A stretch of DNA of 64,000 nt from Oceaniferula flava (GTDB lineage: Bacteria > Verrucomicrobiota > Verrucomicrobiia > Verrucomicrobiales > Akkermansiaceae). A program made the translations under genes and the position numbers. Below the pieces are notes generated by a model. That model was not told the DNA's origin, did no database searches, and was given only the letters and a program-made list of their open reading frames with translations. Location of the stretch: positions 62,001 through 126,000 of the forward strand of contig NZ_JAFBGL010000007.1 in NCBI RefSeq assembly GCF_016811075.1, written 5' to 3'. Below are positions 40,821-48,444 of this stretch, one piece after another; the stretch's first letter is position 1; every line of letters begins with the position of its first letter.

Positions 40821-41837
40821 ATGTCCGAATCCCTCTACCAGCAAGCGAACGAGTCTCCGGACAAGACCTTTGAGCAATCGCTACGGCCCCCGGGCTTTGA
40901 GGATTTTCAAGGTCAGGAAAAAGTCACCGATCGCCTGATGCTGATGGTTGAGGCCGCGCAGCGTCGGGACGATGTGCTTGAGCATATCCTGCTCTCAGGC
41001 CCTCCGGGGCTAGGTAAAACCACCCTGGCGAACATCATTGCCAACGCCACCGGCACCCAACTACACACAACTTCCGGACCACAGATTGAAAAGGCAGGTG
41101 ACCTCGCCGGCATCCTCACCAACATTCAGAAGGGCGACATTCTCTTCATCGATGAAATTCACCGCCTGCACCCCGCCATTGAGGAATACCTCTATCCCGC
41201 GATGGAGGATTATCGACTCGATATCATCATCGACTCCGGGCCATCTGCTCGCACCATTCAGCTGAACCTACCGAAATTCACCCTAGTCGGTGCCACCACC
41301 CGCGCCGGTATGTTGACCTCGCCTCTAAGATCTCGCTTTGGCCTGGTGAACCGGCTCGATTACTACACCGCCAAGCAACTGGCCGGTATCATCCTGCGCT
41401 CCGCTGGCCTACTCGACGTTTCCATCAAACCTGATGGAGCCGAGGAAATTGCCTCCCGCTCTCGCGGCACTCCAAGGATAGCCAATAACCTCCTACGCTG
41501 GGTGCGTGACTACGCACAAGTCCGTGCCGATGGCACCATCACCGGCCCAATTGCCAACGATGCCCTGGCCATGATCGAGATCGATAACGATGGTCTCGAT
41601 GAAATGGACAAACGCATCCTCGAAGCCGCCATTTACAAGTTCAACGGCGGCCCGGTAGGACTTTCTACGCTTGCAGTTGCCATCGGCGAAGATGCCTCTA
41701 CCTTGGAGGAAGTACACGAACCCTTCCTCATCATGCAGGGATTCCTCAAGCGCACCCCTCGCGGACGCGTCGCCCTGCCCGCCGCCTACACCAAAATCGG
41801 CGCCACACCAAACCCCAACCAGCAAGAACTCCTCTAA
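40821..41837 (+). CDS. ruvB: Holliday junction branch migration ATPase RuvB
   Basis: The protein has 338 residues, normal for the family. Walker A is [15 protein letters not shown] (G60-), Walker B is [10 protein letters not shown], sensor 1 is LVGATTRAG and the arginine finger region is [14 protein letters not shown]. The C-terminal winged helix is [19 protein letters not shown]. RuvB pumps DNA at Holliday junctions with RuvA. ruvA and ruvC are not adjacent. The Fur-type gene starts 2 bp after the stop. Confidence 0.97.
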
Positions 41838-41838
41838 A

Positions 41839-42267
41839 ATGTCCAGTGAACTAAACACCATCATCGATCGCTGCCGCTCCGAGGGACTGCGCCGCACCAA
41901 GGCGCTTGAGGAACTTCTCGCCACCCTGCTAGAGTCTGAGCGCCCCATGACACTCGCCGAGCTCGCGGAGTCGTCACGACTGGTGAATCAATGTGACAAA
42001 GCCACCGTTTTCCGTCTACTGCAGCGCCTTGCAGACAAAGGCATCGTCCGCCGCCTCGGTCTCCACGAGCGCGCTGCTTATTTTGCCCTGCTCGTTCCAG
42101 GTCGGCACTGTGATTACTTGATCTGCACCAGCTGCGGCAATATCGAAACCGTCAACGCACCTTGCCCAGTGCGAGACTTGGAAAAAGAGATCCAGTTCAC
42201 CACCGGATACAAAAACCTCTACCACGAGCTCGAATTCTTCGGAACCTGCCCAGCTTGCGCGGCTTGA
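41839..42267 (+). CDS. Fur-family metalloregulator
   Basis: The protein has 142 residues. The winged helix (about 15-80) contains VNQCDKATVFRLLQRLADKGIVRRLG. The structural zinc site is intact: C96-x2-C99 (ICTSCGN) and C137-x2-C140 (GTCPACAA). The metal-sensing stretch GRHCDYLI has HCD where Fur proteins usually have HHDH, so Zur or another subtype is possible. It is translationally coupled to ruvB. Fur-like and Zur-like sites elsewhere in the window are candidate targets. Confidence 0.88.
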   Translation: MSSELNTIIDRCRSEGLRRTKALEELLATLLESERPMTLAELAESSRLVNQCDKATVFRLLQRLADKGIVRRLGLHERAAYFALLVPGRHCDYLICTSCGNIETVNAPCPVRDLEKEIQFTTGYKNLYHELEFFGTCPACAA

Positions 42268-42305
42268 TTCGGAGAATGGCATTCACAGGATAGGCGCTTG
42301 ATGTG

Positions 42306-42329
42306 CCTCACACTTCAAACCGTGTGAGG
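42306..42329. other. Perfect 8-bp hairpin downstream of the Fur-family gene
   Basis: CCTCACAC, an 8-base loop, then GTGTGAGG. It is not followed by T on either strand, so termination is uncertain. Confidence 0.5.
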
Positions 42330-42456
42330 AAACCCATAACTAGCTATTCCTTAGCTACTTTACGGTGCATCCAGTAACAGTCCTCTTTGCATCTCCTGTA
42401 CATTTTGCGAGGTGCCCAAATACAATACTTGGAAGCACGTCAAATAAAGGCCTCTA

Positions 42457-42498
42457 GAAAAAAAACTGGGATGGTCCGATTAACAGACCACCCCCAGT
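42457..42498 (-). terminator. Rho-independent terminator of the PEP-CTERM gene
   Basis: On the minus strand, CTGGG plus TGGTC pair with GACCA plus CCCAG around a 9-base loop, then a run of eight T. It lies about 30 bp after the stop at 42530. Confidence 0.85.
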
Positions 42499-42529
42499 GA
42501 AATAGATTCAGTTGTTTACCCCAGCCTGA

Positions 42530-43369
42530 TTACTTGCGACGACGCAAGATCAAAGCAAGACCACCAAGACCGAGCAAAGCCGCAGAGCTAGGCTCAGGAA
42601 CAAGAGTTAAAGAACTACCCGTTCCACCATCAGAGGTCACCTTGAAAATGGAAGAGAAATTTTCTTCCGTCACTTGAACTCCGCCGACAGACACGAAGTT
42701 GGTCGGGGCTGTACCCGGGATCGTGCCATTCGCTTCGGCACCGTAGACCAATTCGTTGATCCAGTCTGTCTCAGTAGCAGTAGTTCCAGCGATAAGGCTC
42801 CCTGTCCAATCAGAAGTAATGGTGAAAGAAGCGCCCGTGCCGCTGAGGCGAAGGTCAAAGTTATTGGGAACCACAATCGTCGCTGCATCACTCAAATTAA
42901 TGCTCGAGTTTGTACTATTCGCAATGACATCACTAGCGGCATTAGCAAAAATCAACATGGAGTTACCCGACAGGTTAAAAGCACCATTGTCTCCATTGGA
43001 GTTAAAGTTGGTCGTATTATTGATGACAGCATCACCCGAGAGATTGTAAGTGCTATCAGCACTGGTCCAGTTGTAGGCTCCAGTCATCGTTCCCGTCGTA
43101 TGGTTGATAGTAGCTCCCTCGAATCCTTGGATGACATTGCTAGTGCCCACACCATTGCCGACGGTATCGGTGATGTTGATAATACCTACGTCGCCAGATC
43201 CTGGAAGAACACCAGTCGATGAATCGGCTTGATTCTCCCAGTTGGCCGCCGTTTCCAGATTGCCTCCAGTGTGAAGATAGGTGGCTGCTGACGCTGCTAG
43301 ACCGCTAGCTGCCAAGCATGACAGGGTGAGTGATGCGGTAGTGATTTTGCGATGATAATTAATTTTCAT
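42530..43369 (-). CDS. PEP-CTERM protein with autotransporter-like N-rich repeats
   Basis: The protein has 279 residues. The signal peptide runs to about ASAA. The body is rich in N, S, T and G with short motifs such as GGNLETAANWENQADSS, NLSGDAVINNTT and NLSGNSMLIF, like right-handed beta-helix passenger sequences. The C-terminus is VPEPSSAALLGLGG then LALILRRRK. It would be sorted by an exosortase. The gene is clearly A+T-richer than housekeeping genes around it. The start at 43369 gives the signal peptide. Function unknown. Confidence 0.85.
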   Translation of the reverse strand: MKINYHRKITTASLTLSCLAASGLAASAATYLHTGGNLETAANWENQADSSTGVLPGSGDVGIINITDTVGNGVGTSNVIQGFEGATINHTTGTMTGAYNWTSADSTYNLSGDAVINNTTNFNSNGDNGAFNLSGNSMLIFANAASDVIANSTNSSINLSDAATIVVPNNFDLRLSGTGASFTITSDWTGSLIAGTTATETDWINELVYGAEANGTIPGTAPTNFVSVGGVQVTEENFSSIFKVTSDGGTGSSLTLVPEPSSAALLGLGGLALILRRRK

Positions 43370-43586
43370 AGTTATGTGTGTGTGACTTACGCAGGCAATA
43401 ATCGATAGATCACACCTACTATACAAAATAACACATACAAAATATTCCCCATCAACTGCAAACTTTATCCAATATTAATTCCTTACAAATAGGTTACTTA
43501 ATAGCCTCCGTGTTTACCCAAAAACTATCCTAGCTCCGGCAGTCTTCATACCCGGCTGAATCCCACAGGATCCGCGCCCTTCCACC

Positions 43587-43872
43587 AAAAAACCCGCTGC
43601 TCCGGAGGGGATTTGAGCTAGCGGGCTGTATGGTGGCCTTGCGGCCTACGACAATTTCCTTGGGGAGGAACGGTTGTCATGAGTTCTACCTGGGGAAGGG
43701 AGAGAAAAGCTTGCAACTGTGTTCTCTTGGCATCCTTGGGTTAGTGTGGTGTCCAAGGACTCAACCGACTTGGGGGGCGTCGATTGCAAGAGAGCAGTGT
43801 CAGCTTTGGAGGGTGGTCTCGTCCTGGAAGGGGGTTAGCAAGTTCGGCAATGGGGATTGTCTCGCTTGCTGA
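43587..43872 (-). ncRNA. Candidate structured small RNA, copy A (about 285 nt)
   Basis: A minus-strand unit with its own promoter (43877-43905) and terminator (43593-43625 hairpin, then T6 at 43592-43587). It starts with hairpin AGCAAG...CTTGCT (43870-43837). The core, about 170 nt, is shared with copy B: CAATCGAC and GTCGGTTG close a loop GCCCCCCAA, next TCCTTGG/CCAAGGA, and TCTCTTGCAA can pair with either CAAGAGA or TTGCAAG. A second GACAA...TTGTC stem carries a TCCCCAA loop. CCUCC/CCCCAA motifs recur. No known RNA family is recognised; it is not tmRNA, RNase P RNA, SRP or 6S by their signature sequences. Confidence 0.65.
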
Positions 43873-43876
43873 AACG

Positions 43877-43905
43877 AAGTTAATGTTATTTTTTATAAAT
43901 GTAAA
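43877..43905 (-). promoter_or_regulatory. Promoter of small RNA copy A
   Basis: On the minus strand: TTTACA (43905-43900), a 17-base spacer, TAACTT (43882-43877), then CGTTTC and the conserved AGCAAG start. The matching element before copy B has the same spacing. Confidence 0.55.
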
Positions 43906-44080
43906 CGGATTTCTTCTGCTTAAAGTAATAAAAAGTATAATTTAACGTTAGAAACACGATAACCTAACTCAATATCGACCATTTAGACCCACAGATTACC
44001 TCTACACCATTACATAAAATACATTTTCTGTAATTTCTGCCGCGAGGCTGTGACCTCTGTAATCACCGCTTAGCTATAAT

Positions 44081-44425
44081 AAAAAACAGCTTTCTCCATT
44101 GAAGACGGAGAAAGCTGCTTTTTGGGTAGTTAATCCAGAGTTTCTTGGGAGGAAACGCCTGTCAAAATTGAGGACTGCTCTGGATTAATGAAATAATGTT
44201 TCTTGGAGGGAAACGCTGTTTTCTTGGGAGGGGGGTCTTAATGATAAGGAATAGAGAGTGAAAAGCTTGCAACCGTGTTCTCTTGGCATCCTTGGTTTTT
44301 GTGTTTCCAAGGACTCAACCGACTTGGAGGGTGTCGATTGCAAGAGAGCATTGTCACTTTCGTGCGTGGTCTTGTCCTGGATTGGAGGGCAGCAAGTCCG
44401 GCGATAATATCGTCTCGCTTGCTGA
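44081..44425 (-). ncRNA. Candidate structured small RNA, copy B (about 345 nt)
   Basis: A minus-strand unit parallel to copy A. It starts at AGCAAG (44423) and ends with terminator CAGCTTTCTCC/GGAGAAAGCTG (44117-44087) then T6. The first hairpin has CGAT/ATCG where A has CAAT/ATTG, a compensatory change. The core stem CAATCGAC/GTCGGTTG closes loop ACCCTCCAA. Two further hairpins GTTTC-N7-GAAAC have loops CCTCCAA and CTCCCAA; CCUCC-type motifs occur at least five times. Length grows in the 3' half relative to A. No reading frame is conserved between the copies. Confidence 0.65.
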
Positions 44426-44430
44426 AAACA

Positions 44431-44459
44431 TAATTAGGGTGATTTTCAAGATAGGTAAA
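44431..44459 (-). promoter_or_regulatory. Promoter of small RNA copy B
   Basis: On the minus strand: TTTACC (44459-44454), a 17-base spacer, TAATTA (44436-44431), then TGTTTTC and AGCAAG. The layout equals that of copy A. Confidence 0.55.
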
Positions 44460-44862
44460 GCGTTTTTTACGATTAATTTTGCTGTTTTTTATAATACAGG
44501 CCTATTTGTCTGCAATTAACTGCCTTGGAAGCCCATATCTGCGCAATGACCTTCCTGCCCAACACCCGTTTTTACGTTATTTTTTATAATACCATCCAGT
44601 CACAGACAATGTCCAACCACCACACCAGATAATGCCTCCAAGCAATACCAGCCTCGCAATTCACTCTATTCAGGAGAGGCAGAGCCAGTTTCACAGTCTC
44701 CTGATCTTTGGTGCCAGCTTGTCACCCCTAGCGCCAGCTTGCCAAATGCGCAGCTTTCACAGTCAGTCTCGGCATTTGCACTGGACGGCAAATCGGACGG
44801 GTGCTAATCGTAACCCGCTCGCTCTCATTGCTAATGAGACTCAAACTCAACAAATTCCAACA
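44460..44862. other. 403-bp gap between small RNA B and the second iron operon
   Basis: No gene is supported. The first 140 bp are A+T-rich and carry two copies of TTTTTTATAATAC (about 44484 and 44580), related to the sequence upstream of copy A. The rest reads as an upstream extension of the FTR1-like frame but has no signal peptide; it contains a Fur-like element just before the chosen start. Confidence 0.6.
44833..44843 (+). promoter_or_regulatory. Fur-box-like element before the second iron operon
   Basis: AATGAGACTCA ends 20 bp before the ATG at 44863 and overlaps the palindrome CTCATT-GCT-AATGAG (44824-44838). The same AATGAGANTCA pattern precedes the other iron ABC operon at 16734-16724. 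Confidence 0.5.
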
Positions 44863-45693
44863 ATGACTTTATCTCGCTCACTGACCCGCATGCTGCCTAC
44901 CTCGTTGGCAGTCGCCGCTGCCATTATTGCCCTGCAACCATCCAATGCCAACGCCCACGGCGCACTGGGTGAGGACGTGAAAAACATGCAGGCGCACGTC
45001 GGCGAGTATGAAACCGATCTGCGCAAGACCATCTCCAAGTATGAAACCCTGGTAAACACCTACGCCGAAAAAGGCGGTAAGGCCGTGGACACCGGTGATT
45101 TACTGAAGTTCTGGGAAGACGCCAAGATGCACTACCCAGTGGAGCTCAACTTCGTGCAGCACTATGCCAAGATCTGGCAGGGCATTTACGCGATTAAGGA
45201 AGGCATCGATGCCGGCAAGCCTGGCAAAGAGGTTCAAGCCTCCATGACCAGCCTGCGTGAAACACTCTGGCAGGGGCTGGGCGCCGTCAAACTCGCCGCC
45301 CATCAACAGGCCAATAACCAAGCAGCCGCTCCCAAGGCCGCTGGTGACAAACATGACGCCGCTGCCGATCCAGTAGCCACGCTCGCCATCATCAAGGACA
45401 AGCTCGATCGCATCATGGCAAAATCTGCCGAGCGCGACTTCGAGGAAGCCAAGAAAATGGTGCACGCGACCTACCTGAACCTTTTCGAGGGCGTGGAAGG
45501 TGGCCTCATTGAGCAAGACGCCAAGCTGGTGGCCGATCTGGAAAAAGACTTCAACGTCACCTTGCCGAAGCTGATCGAAGGTGAGGCCGCACTGGCTGAG
45601 ATCAAAAAAACCACCGAAGCCATGAAGGCAAAAATTGCCAAGGCCAGCGAACTGATGGCCAAAGCTGCCAAGGAGAAGAAAGATGCCTTTTAA
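44863..45693 (+). CDS. Secreted FTR1-like periplasmic iron-domain protein
   Basis: The protein has 276 residues. The signal peptide runs to about NANA. An alpha-helical body includes AKKMVHATYLNLFEGVEGGL, IEQDAKLVADLEKDFNVTLPKLIEGEA, which matches the extracytoplasmic N-terminal domain found on many FTR1 iron permeases; a lysine/alanine-rich coiled coil ends it. No permease part is present. The next gene, an iron-type binding protein, overlaps it by 11 bp, so it is the first gene of the second iron operon and probably helps ferrous/ferric capture. An imelysin-like role is the alternative. Confidence 0.7.
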   Translation: MTLSRSLTRMLPTSLAVAAAIIALQPSNANAHGALGEDVKNMQAHVGEYETDLRKTISKYETLVNTYAEKGGKAVDTGDLLKFWEDAKMHYPVELNFVQHYAKIWQGIYAIKEGIDAGKPGKEVQASMTSLRETLWQGLGAVKLAAHQQANNQAAAPKAAGDKHDAAADPVATLAIIKDKLDRIMAKSAERDFEEAKKMVHATYLNLFEGVEGGLIEQDAKLVADLEKDFNVTLPKLIEGEAALAEIKKTTEAMKAKIAKASELMAKAAKEKKDAF

Positions 45694-46741
45694 TCCCACA
45701 CGCCGCCATTTCCTACGTTCCGCCATCGGTGCCGCCGGTGGCTGCATGTCCGGGCTGCCGCTGATGGGGCTGGGCCAGGATGCCGCGCAAAAGCTTGCCG
45801 GCGTTTCCGTGGAAGATCTTCCGCGCCTGAAGGGGAAGCTGACGCTCTACCTCGGACGTGGCGAAGGCGGACTGTATGAGCGCGTCATCGATGCGGTGAA
45901 AAAGCGCAATCCGGATCTCCGACTCAGCATCCGCCGCGGACCCACCGCGGCACTGGCGAACACCATCGTCGCCGAGGCGAAAATGGGCCTGGTCCGCGCC
46001 GACGTCTTCTGGGCGGTCGATTCCGGAGCCATCGGACTGGTCGCCGGCACCGGCAAGGCGCGCAAGCTGCCCGATACGATTACCAGCCAAGTCGACGAAC
46101 GCTTCCGCTACGATAACTGGGTGCCGATTTCGGGTCGCATCCGCACCATCCCCTTCCACACCGGTAAACTCAAAGCTGCCGATGTGCCGAAGACACTTTC
46201 GGAAATTGCCGACAGCGATCTCACCATCGGCTGGGCCCCGGCTTACGGAGCTTTTCAATCGTTTGTCTCCGCCATGCGGATCCTGCGCGGTGACGAGGCC
46301 ACCAAGAAATGGCTGATCGCCACCAAGAAACGTGCCAAATCCTACGCCGGCGAACTCGGTGCCGTCATGGGCGTGGCTCGTGGCGAAGTGGACATCGCCT
46401 TTGCCAATCACTACTACACCCTGCGACTGAAAGCAGGCGATCCGGACGCCAAGGTGGACCTCGCATTCACCAACAACGATGCCGGCTGTCTGCTCAATGC
46501 CTCCGGCGCCATGACCCTGCGCGGCGGCGAGCTGGCGCAGAATTTCGTCCGCTACCTCCTCAGTCGCGAAGCGCAATCATTCCTCGCCTCGGAAGCCTAT
46601 GAAATCCCGATGCTGCCGAGCGTCACCATGCCGAAAGGCCTGCCCGACCTCGCTGACATCCATCCGCCGAAGGTCGACCTCGCCCAGCTGGCGGATCTCG
46701 CCCCCACCTTGCGACTGATGCGCAGCACCGGGGTCTTGTAA
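45683..46741 (+). CDS. Tat-exported iron(III)-type ABC binding protein
   Basis: The protein has 352 residues. TRRHFLRSAIGAAGG is a twin-arginine signal. The FbpA-like fold contains KLTLYLGRGEGGLYERVIDAV, AEAKMGLVRADVFWAVDSGAIGLV and VARGEVDIAFANHYYTLRL, the last with the tyrosine pair used to bind iron in this family. It overlaps the FTR1-like gene by 11 bp. The permease follows after 98 bp. It is only distantly related to the 508-residue binding protein at 14051. Confidence 0.88.
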   Translation: MPFNPTRRHFLRSAIGAAGGCMSGLPLMGLGQDAAQKLAGVSVEDLPRLKGKLTLYLGRGEGGLYERVIDAVKKRNPDLRLSIRRGPTAALANTIVAEAKMGLVRADVFWAVDSGAIGLVAGTGKARKLPDTITSQVDERFRYDNWVPISGRIRTIPFHTGKLKAADVPKTLSEIADSDLTIGWAPAYGAFQSFVSAMRILRGDEATKKWLIATKKRAKSYAGELGAVMGVARGEVDIAFANHYYTLRLKAGDPDAKVDLAFTNNDAGCLLNASGAMTLRGGELAQNFVRYLLSREAQSFLASEAYEIPMLPSVTMPKGLPDLADIHPPKVDLAQLADLAPTLRLMRSTGVL

Positions 46742-46839
46742 AACTCGGAACTTCTCAAGCTCAAGCAGGCCGGTCACCGCTCGATGCGCTCCCAGTAGCC
46801 ATTGACGCGGAGGCCGGCCGGCCCTTATAACCGCATGCG

Positions 46840-48444
46840 ATGACCCGCTGGCTAAGCCGCTACCCTTCCTACCTGCTCTCCGCTGTGATTGCGGTGCTGG
46901 CGCTAGCTCCTATTGCGGTGCTCTACTACCTGGCTAAGGGAGCGGAGGTTTATTTCAGCGAGGAAACGTGGCGAATTCTCAAAAACACCCTGCTGCTCAC
47001 AGCCACCACCGTGGTGGGGTCGATCGTGATCGGGGTGCCGCTTGCCTTCCTAACAGCCTACTGCAAGCTACCGCTCCAGCGCCTCTGGGTGATCGCACTG
47101 GCCACGCCCTTGGCGATGCCCAGCTACCTCGGCGCCTTCACCTTCTACGCCGCCTTCGGCAAGGGCGGTGAGCTCGAAAAGTTGATTGGTTTGACCTTGC
47201 CCAGAATGGAGGGACTGGCGGGTGCCACCGTGGTGATGACGCTTTACAGTTACCCCTTTGTTTTTCTAACAACACGCGCTGCACTGCGAGGACTGGACGG
47301 AAATATCGTCAATGCCGCCCGCACTCTCGGGCTCTCGTTGCCGGGCTCCCTCTGGCGAGTGGTGCTGCCACGGGTGCGCAATGGCATCGCCGCCGGCTCT
47401 TTGCTGGTGGCGCTCTACACGCTCTCGGATTTCGGCACACCGGCGATCATGCAGCTGGACACCTTCACGCGTGCCATCTTTGTGGAATACAATGCCTTCG
47501 GCCTCGACCGCGCCGCCCTGTTCTCGCTGCAGTTGATTTTCCTCGTGGTGGTGGTGCTGGTGGCCGAGTTTTGCTTTCGCAGCGTGCGGGAAAATAGCGG
47601 CCATTGTTTGTCGCTACAGCCGAGCCGTGCGGGTGTCGCATTTTCCCTGATACCAGTGGCCGGCATTGTCGCTTTGGCTATCGGGTTACCGCTACTGATC
47701 TTCGGTATCTGGCTGAAGCGCGAGGGGGCGGGAGACTTTGATCAAATCATCGCCTGGAACTCACTCAAGGTCTCGCTGATCGCTGCGGGCGTGGCGGTGA
47801 TCGTGGCTCTGCCGGTGGCTTATGCGGCAACGATTGGAAAGGTCGGTCGTTTCCTCGAACGCATCGTCTACCTCGGCTACGGCGTGCCTGGAATCGTCAT
47901 GGGCACCGCCCTGGTTTACCTCGGACTGCGCGCCGAGGCTGAGATTTACAAAGCGTCTGAGGAGAACCCAGAGGTGACTCAGTTTCTGGAGAAATGGGGG
48001 CTGGAGGAGCCGTTTTTGTATCAGACGTTGGCTTTGTTAGTGATCGCCTACGTGCTGCGTTTTCTGCCGCTGGCGGTGGGCACGATTCGGGCGACTTTGG
48101 AAAAAATCGATGGCAACATGGTGCACGCCGCGCGCACCTTGGGGGCCGGTCGCAGTGAGGTCTTCCTACGGGTAACCATGCCGCTGGCCATGCGGGGAAT
48201 CGTCGCCGGAGCCGCCTTGGTTTTCCTCGAAACCATGCGCGAGCTGCCCGCCACCCTGCTGCTGCGCCCGAATGAATACGAAACCTTGACCACGGAAATC
48301 TGGCTGGTCTACGAGGCTGGCTACTTCGGCCGCGCCGCCATCCCCGGGCTGTTACTGGTCTTGTTTTCCGCCATCGGTCTGGCCATCATGCTCGCCGGTG
48401 AGCGGAGGGCTGAGAAACTTCTGCTCCACCAGGAAGAATCATGA
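46840..48444 (+). CDS. ABC transporter permease, fused double domain (iron type)
   Basis: The protein has 534 residues and about 12 transmembrane segments in two halves. EAA-like loops are NAARTLGLSLPGSLWRVVLPRVRNG near 165 and HAARTLGAGRSEVFLRVTMPLAMRG near 430. It overlaps the ATPase gene by 4 bp. The structure parallels the permease at 12348, but the two are not near-identical copies, so the genome has two separate iron-type systems. Confidence 0.9.
   Translation: MTRWLSRYPSYLLSAVIAVLALAPIAVLYYLAKGAEVYFSEETWRILKNTLLLTATTVVGSIVIGVPLAFLTAYCKLPLQRLWVIALATPLAMPSYLGAFTFYAAFGKGGELEKLIGLTLPRMEGLAGATVVMTLYSYPFVFLTTRAALRGLDGNIVNAARTLGLSLPGSLWRVVLPRVRNGIAAGSLLVALYTLSDFGTPAIMQLDTFTRAIFVEYNAFGLDRAALFSLQLIFLVVVVLVAEFCFRSVRENSGHCLSLQPSRAGVAFSLIPVAGIVALAIGLPLLIFGIWLKREGAGDFDQIIAWNSLKVSLIAAGVAVIVALPVAYAATIGKVGRFLERIVYLGYGVPGIVMGTALVYLGLRAEAEIYKASEENPEVTQFLEKWGLEEPFLYQTLALLVIAYVLRFLPLAVGTIRATLEKIDGNMVHAARTLGAGRSEVFLRVTMPLAMRGIVAGAALVFLETMRELPATLLLRPNEYETLTTEIWLVYEAGYFGRAAIPGLLLVLFSAIGLAIMLAGERRAEKLLLHQEES

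Follow-up and report, generated by a model that had tools for sequence, protein, structure and literature searches.

A tandem pair of putative structured small RNAs with redundant C-rich loops in Oceaniferula flava

Two related minus-strand units, A and B, occupy a 1.5-kb interval bounded by the likely start of a PEP-CTERM gene and a divergent plus-strand open reading frame (ORF) in the window, the 64-kb stretch of the Oceaniferula flava genome analysed here. A and B are very probably real RNA genes, and they most likely represent two paralogous small RNAs (sRNAs) that would be transcribed independently of each other. Together with their relatives in G003, G005, G006, and G011, four further genomes of the genus, they form a new family of a known kind of RNA. 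The structure, strand, and conservation of these RNAs, the predicted exposure of their loops, and a promoter spacing found in three sequences are results of calculation and are described first; a candidate mode of action is then weighed against its rivals.

Organization of the two RNA units

All features of the RNAs given here lie on the minus strand. Unit A (43587..43870, 284 nt) and unit B (44081..44423, 343 nt) each run from the sequence AGCAAG, found at 43870 and 44423, respectively, to the end of a T6 run; an earlier, sequence-only reading of this DNA had proposed a pair of related minus-strand units with this common start, and the proposal is borne out. Unit A ends ~218 nt before the likely start of the PEP-CTERM gene (~43369, minus strand), and the start of the divergent ORF is either 44632 or an internal ATG at 44863. 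Identity between the units is 89% in the 5' part (165 aligned nt), and the 3' parts can be aligned only loosely (76% over 114 gapped-aligned nt). Common to both units are a 5' hairpin, a three-way-junction core, and C-rich loops.

The 5' hairpin spans 43837..43870 in A (-7.4 kcal/mol, z -2.4) and 44391..44423 in B (-9.7 kcal/mol, z -2.5), the latter carrying an A-U to G-C compensatory pair. The core of A (43703..43807) comprises a conserved tail and three helices: P1 (UCUCUUG/CAAGAGA, 43793-43787/43729-43723), P2 (CAAUCGAC/GUCGGUUG, 43786-43779/43769-43762), which encloses a C-rich loop at 43778-43770, and P3 (GUCCUUGG/CCAAGGAU, 43760-43753/43739-43732). The core of B (44259..44361) is placed by its fold and by a covariance model trained on A and B. 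In the 3' half of A the fold predicts a hairpin with a C-rich loop (UUCCU CCCCA AGGAA, 43650..43678). A CCYYCCAAGAAA-like block is present in three copies in B, two of which form small hairpins with GUUUC/GAAAC stems according to the fold and repeat analysis, one with the loop CUCCCAA (44140..44158) and one with the loop CCUCCAA (44198..44216); the third copy of CCTCCCAAGAAA in B, assigned to repeat family D5, is at 44220..44231.

Promoter-like boxes, terminators, and an AT-rich motif

Each unit had been credited in the sequence-only reading with promoter-like boxes of the form TTTAC-17-TAA and with a terminator hairpin ending in T6, and these elements are present in both A and B. The boxes of A (43877..43905) are TTTACA (43905-43900) and TAACTT (43882-43877), separated by 17 nt and followed by 6 nt to AGCAAG; those of B (44431..44459) are TTTACC (44459-44454) and TAATTA (44436-44431), also separated by 17 nt and followed by 7 nt to AGCAAG. 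G011, the sole relative in which the boxes could be aligned, keeps the TTTAC and TAA boxes and their 17-nt spacing; by eye, the TTTAC box was not recognised in G003 or G005, and the contig of G006 begins too near the RNA for its boxes to be judged.

The terminator hairpin of A (43587..43627), in which a hairpin at 43627-43591 runs into T6 (43592-43587), has a folding energy of -18.6 kcal/mol (z -3.0). That of B (44081..44123) has T6 (44086-44081) inside the hairpin span and a folding energy of -26 kcal/mol (z -8.5). All four relatives have terminator-like hairpins (z-scores of -3.1 to -7.6), and a run of four or five T comes after each. A consensus scan of 43400-44860, with a terminator rule that admits loops of 3-8 only, lists neither the promoters nor the terminators of A and B; it returned three other promoter-like sites (2.4 in shuffles) and no terminators.

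The AT-rich motif TTATAAAAAAYARCA is found within the promoter of A (43884..43898), upstream of B (44480..44494; a similar block lies upstream in G011), and between B and the divergent ORF (44575..44589). Three of the five genome-wide matches to this motif with at most one mismatch are at this locus, and the reversed control pattern has one match; such an arrangement would fit a common control of both RNAs and the divergent ORF. Elsewhere in the genome (L057, near 1501-1515), the motif also precedes a minus-strand ORF of 97 aa.

Folding, covariation, and strand

The minus strand of A (43586-43876) folds with a z-score of -4.61, a value reached by none of 200 shuffles, and the plus strand with -1.41 (18 of 200 shuffles as good). 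For B (44079-44425) the z-score is -6.01 on the minus strand (0 of 100 shuffles as good) and -3.62 on the plus strand, which is weaker than the minus strand though also reached by none of 100 shuffles. The first hairpin differs between the copies by one pair altered on both sides, CAAT/ATTG in A and CGAT/ATCG in B; this compensatory change, reported in the sequence-only reading, is seen in the sequence, and the U-G pair that the same reading noted in CAATCGAC/GTCGGTTG, possible only on the minus strand, is real. Within the core, the 46 helix positions of P1-P3 hold no difference between A and B, and the remaining 59 positions hold 15 (Fisher p 1e-4).

Alignment A2 comprises six sequences (A, B, and the four relatives), two of which are near-identical. 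In this alignment P0, P1, and P3 are paired in 97.4% of cells, compared with 35-50% when the partners are slid. Five cells are changed on both sides, which none of 500 shuffles reaches; two pairs, one in P1 and one in P3, are changed on both sides and still paired (132 of 500 shuffles reach two), and there are six further pair types (483 of 500 shuffles reach that number). The wobble cells are ten G-U and no A-C, an imbalance that indicates the minus strand, and there are three other mismatches. Helix P2 is less certain than P1 and P3 because MAFFT misaligns it among the distant members, so that covariation in P2 rests on few rows. In alignment A7 the paired cells of P2 amount to 68.8%, and the whole structure has 9 A-C versus 12 G-U cells with 11 other mismatches.

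Relatives and distribution

The sequence-only reading had put forward a covariance model built from both copies as a check, and such a model (R2, from A and B alone) recovers relatives of the core at 39-58 bits from four further genomes of this genus: the scores for these unseen sequences are 58.3 bits in G011, 47.3 in G006, 40.6 in G005, and 38.6 in G003. BLAST against 58 genomes, the own genome included, gives E-values below 1e-6 in five genomes only, the own one and these four of the same genus; at E <= 1, 37 of the 58 genomes match, and the matches beyond the five, the best with an E-value of 0.028, were treated as chance.

A model built from all six sequences (R1) was used for wider scans, those of the family and order with stricter filters. 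Strong matches (E 1e-23 or better) are found in 5 of 260 family genomes, two further matches with E-values of 0.02-0.05 being dropped; among 386 genomes drawn from the order there are four matches, all in this genus, with G011 not among the rows listed. A laxer scan of 14 genomes of the genus gives the same five strong matches and two weak ones. Weak model matches in G009 (18.0 bits) and G007 (17.2 bits) were dropped, as were L037 (23.3 bits) and L038 (20.8 bits), in which most of the junction is missing; L037 resembles coding sequence by eye. The exact core motif is found in four stretches among a one-genome-per-species collection of 84,980 species, from which the own records were possibly left out; all four are MAGs, titled Akkermansiaceae (three) or Verrucomicrobiaceae (one). 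No viral contig in IMG/VR contains the exact core motif.

As far as searched, the RNA family is restricted to the genus and patchy; its presence in 5 of 14 genomes makes it dispensable at genus level. On an ABC-F protein tree of 12 genomes, in which three of nine inner branches are well supported, presence of the RNA needs four changes and is unclustered (352 of 500 shuffles are as low).

Genomic context and the nature of the units

An ABC-F gene on the opposite strand faces the RNA in all four relatives, a convergent arrangement that leaves no downstream gene for the RNA to lead. In G003 and G005 the RNA lies between pheT and the ABC-F gene, the gene pair in G005 having been checked with Pfam. 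By eye, G001 and G002 (L054 and L055) have pheT-like and ABC-F genes separated by a short gap and no RNA, and G003 and G005 (L005 and L006) show an inverted repeat, TAATAATAT-TGC-ATATTATTA, upstream of their RNA. The ABC-F gene of the own genome has no such RNA beside it. In the window the RNA pair is flanked by a Fur-family regulator gene (41671-42267) and by solute-binding protein and permease genes (45683-48444); an iron role is unsupported, since the relatives sit beside the ABC-F gene instead.

The same context speaks to the proposal that A and B are cis-acting leaders of the PEP-CTERM gene, as a riboswitch or attenuator pair. Strand and distance allow it, as this gene is on the same strand and its start follows the end of A by ~218 nt, but each unit is closed by a terminator-like hairpin of its own, and the conserved position upstream of a gene that marks cis-leaders is lacking in four of four relatives, where the RNA and the ABC-F gene converge; the proposal is given very little credence. 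That A and B are a functionless remnant of a gene or mobile element is just as hard to credit. A remnant would account for the patchy presence, for the four unclustered changes on the ABC-F tree, and for the pheT/ABC-F interval without RNA in G001 and G002, but it sits poorly with helices that are preserved while loops vary, with the promoter spacing kept in G011, and with the absence of a kept reading frame and, one sub-threshold match apart, of any protein family in the ORFs. A decayed gene was considered and rejected: the six ORFs over both units give a single sub-threshold Pfam match (TM2, 18.7 bits, cut-off 27.9). No reading frame is kept across the six RNAs, the frames drifting out of phase or being without ATG in other members; among short ATG frames, MPREH.CKLF is common to A and B and an MPPN start to G003, G005, and G006.

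A search with Rfam 15 gives no match at the gathering threshold in the 64-kb window. Sub-threshold matches number five at E <= 5 in 41000-47000, two of them over or beside the terminator of B, and four at E <= 1 in the relatives (L003-L006), three of which are to rdlD at 22-27 bits versus 50 and antisense over the terminators. 6S RNA was rejected as an identity for the units, which stay below the Rfam threshold; the one RF00013 match of the genome is elsewhere (C1:282694-282874, 55.1 bits). Neither of the search outcomes that the sequence-only reading had named as contrary to it, a known Rfam family or a decayed gene, was encountered, and its view of a structured RNA gains support from the four relatives, the two double-sided pair changes, the minus-strand wobbles, the recurring promoter spacing, and the terminators. 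In the literature on small or structured RNAs of this phylum, the titles and abstracts among the matches listed contain no comparable RNA; unlisted papers may exist.

C-rich loops and a candidate mode of action

The six RNAs, with ends set by eye in the relatives, contain 29-41% C and 16-20% G and have 6 to 18 CCYCC motifs each. In all six the mean predicted probability of being unpaired is 0.75-0.85 for CCYCC versus 0.46-0.55 for other C, and the number of CCYCC motifs exceeds that in composition shuffles in five (p 0 to 0.0045; for A, p 0.0625). Several stable stems with apical C-rich loops, as in RNAs of the sX13 type, are predicted. The Hfq family PF17209 has no match at E <= 0.01 in the own genome (98.5% complete); 5 of 14 control genomes match. 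The own genome also has three RRM_1 genes (L088, L089, and L090), and 2 of 14 control genomes match this family.

A and B may be trans-acting, Hfq-independent regulatory RNAs that use redundant C-rich loops against G-rich mRNA. This is the reading that we tentatively prefer, while holding it to be somewhat short of probable; it draws on the anatomy of the RNAs and on the precedents of sX13, NfeR1, and LhrC, and transcription, trans action, pairing, and targets are what we infer. The lack of an Hfq match and the convergent placement in the relatives speak for this reading as well; the start-region tests described below, the patchy distribution, and the small set of six sequences, two of them near-identical, weigh against it. 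Each RNA would start at AGCAAG and end at its intrinsic terminator, and its 5' hairpin, junction, and several hairpins or single strands would expose C-rich runs (C/U-C-C-C/U-C-C-A-A). The redundant loops would pair, without Hfq, with a limited set of mRNAs at G-rich stretches, and pairing would block translation or alter mRNA stability. The conserved junction would keep the loops presented and protect the RNA; with the core kept and the 3' half drifted, the two copies may have overlapping but non-identical targets.

Known RNAs of similar design

RNAs with C-rich or CU-rich loops of this mode are described from Xanthomonas, Sinorhizobium, and Listeria (PMC3771888; PMC10746234; PMC4132741), and A and B most likely work like sX13, NfeR1, or LhrC while standing outside those families. 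The published account of sX13 from Xanthomonas presents a structured, Hfq-independent RNA with several C-rich loops in a host without a consensus ribosome-binding site (PMC3771888); A and B are likewise structured, with several C-rich loops, in a host without detectable Hfq, but they have at least six C-runs and a three-way junction, whereas sX13 is described with three stems and 4C/5C loops. This likeness is one of description, the Rfam scan being the sole sequence comparison. NfeR1 and other alpha-r14 (cuckoo) RNAs are reported to expose redundant C-rich motifs in several hairpins and to be Hfq-independent (PMC10746234). Redundant C-rich motifs in several hairpins are predicted to be exposed in A and B too; as described, however, the three hairpins of NfeR1 each carry an identical CCUCCUCCC, and CCTCCTCCC is absent from A and B; a further difference is that the host here has at most a trace of Shine-Dalgarno (SD) signal. 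LhrC of Listeria resembles A and B, again by description, in being a set of paralogous multicopy sRNAs with redundant CU-rich sites, and is reported to differ in having five copies and in binding Hfq (PMC4132741). In Bacteroides the paralogous FopS sRNAs are described as associating with the non-Hfq RNA-binding protein RbpB, so that such a protein and paralogous sRNAs can cooperate; FopS is, however, depicted as a single-stranded 5' seed plus a terminator, whereas A and B are junction RNAs with C-rich loops (PMC11697453).

PrrF1 and PrrF2 of Pseudomonas are tandem duplicated sRNAs in an iron-related setting, and A and B share with them the tandem duplication and, in the window, an iron-related setting. 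Unlike PrrF1/PrrF2, the relatives of A and B adjoin an ABC-F gene, and inspection by eye for a Fur site at A and B demonstrated none. RbpB is an RRM protein, a class also represented in the own genome.

Translation starts and the choice between mRNA and protein partners

The host's translation starts were examined in 464 kb of its genome (400 kb plus the window, ~12% of the total), in which a simple gene caller of our own called 311 genes; misplaced starts among these calls would weaken a signal. The tetramers GGAG, GAGG, and AGGA are flat, with 18 and 17 occurrences per 311 in the two nearest 12-nt intervals and 13-19 in the other eight. Stricter SD 5-mers are slightly up (8 of 311 at -18 to -7 versus 2-6 elsewhere), and 84 unambiguous starts give an SD signal in 9 versus 5 in the upstream control. 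In the 3' tail of 16S rRNA, GGATCATCTCCTTTCT, CAUCUCC replaces CACCUCC (own genome, G000:C21:2026-2045, L085); a CAUCUCC tail is present in three of the three genomes in which the tail was found (L085, L086, and L087), the other 11 of 14 having no pattern match. Akkermansia is listed among organisms with scarce SD use but conserved CCUCC, and other organisms with an altered anti-SD core are described in the same source (PMC10783764).

For all nine accessible segments of A and B the duplex threshold is reached less often in the 311 starts than in gene interiors, which as controls are less C-rich and richer in GG than start regions; compared with shuffled segments, four of the nine are higher (by at most 0.007) and five lower. 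None of the 311 start regions contains the complement CTTGGRRGG. In a scan of start regions with 87 14-nt windows (39 of A and 48 of B), a few are approximately twofold above shuffles, the largest being 23 versus 10.0 and 22 versus 9.7. The first of these shows no excess once the start codon is left out, the second is equally frequent inside genes (26 of 311), and none of the six excess windows that were rechecked is clearly above both controls. CCYCC is commoner in start regions than in gene interiors (3.0 versus 1.8 per kb) and GGAGG is rarer (0.8 versus 1.4).

Targets of sX13-type RNAs carry G-rich motifs near the translation start, and alpha-r14 RNAs pair with the initiation regions of their mRNAs; the 311 start regions show no enrichment and no general preference of this kind, although single targets may exist. 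These start-region results count against a general ribosome-binding-site mechanism and leave selective pairing or protein binding. Anti-SD sRNAs of the NfeR1 kind, blocking ribosome-binding sites generally, would suit the abundance of CCYCC motifs, mostly unpaired by prediction, and the trace of SD signal that remains (8 of 311 versus 2-6; 9 of 84 versus 5 of 84), but the flat tetramers around starts, the CAUCUCC tail in every genome where the tail was found, and duplex tests without start preference make such a role highly improbable. The main rival to trans-acting pairing is protein binding, in which C-rich, G-poor single strands would titrate or recruit an RRM protein, Rho, or a cold-shock protein with no mRNA pairing. 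This rival, on balance unlikely, can call on the three RRM_1 genes in a genome with no detectable Hfq, on the base composition and the mostly unpaired C-runs, and on loops that show no preference for translation starts. The binding of a paralogous sRNA family by RbpB is a parallel as well, but the FopS sRNAs so bound are reported still to base-pair (PMC11697453), and the two readings may therefore be compatible.

A narrower variant, in which a genus-specific junction RNA of bacteria with no detectable Hfq and little or no SD signal would present arrays of C-rich loops to a protein (RRM, ribosomal protein, or Rho) as a titrating decoy and not as antisense, is doubtful. Some of the C-rich loops carry the CCUCC core that the 16S tail of the own genome no longer has. 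To our knowledge, no tandem sRNA pair works on the titrating-decoy principle.

Implications

In a host with at most a trace of SD signal, the C-rich loops of A and B are unlikely to be general anti-SD tools; their targets would then be unusually specific, or the loops would bind protein. A compact RNA family with a testable structure may offer a handle on RNA regulation in a host with no detectable Hfq and nearly no SD signal.
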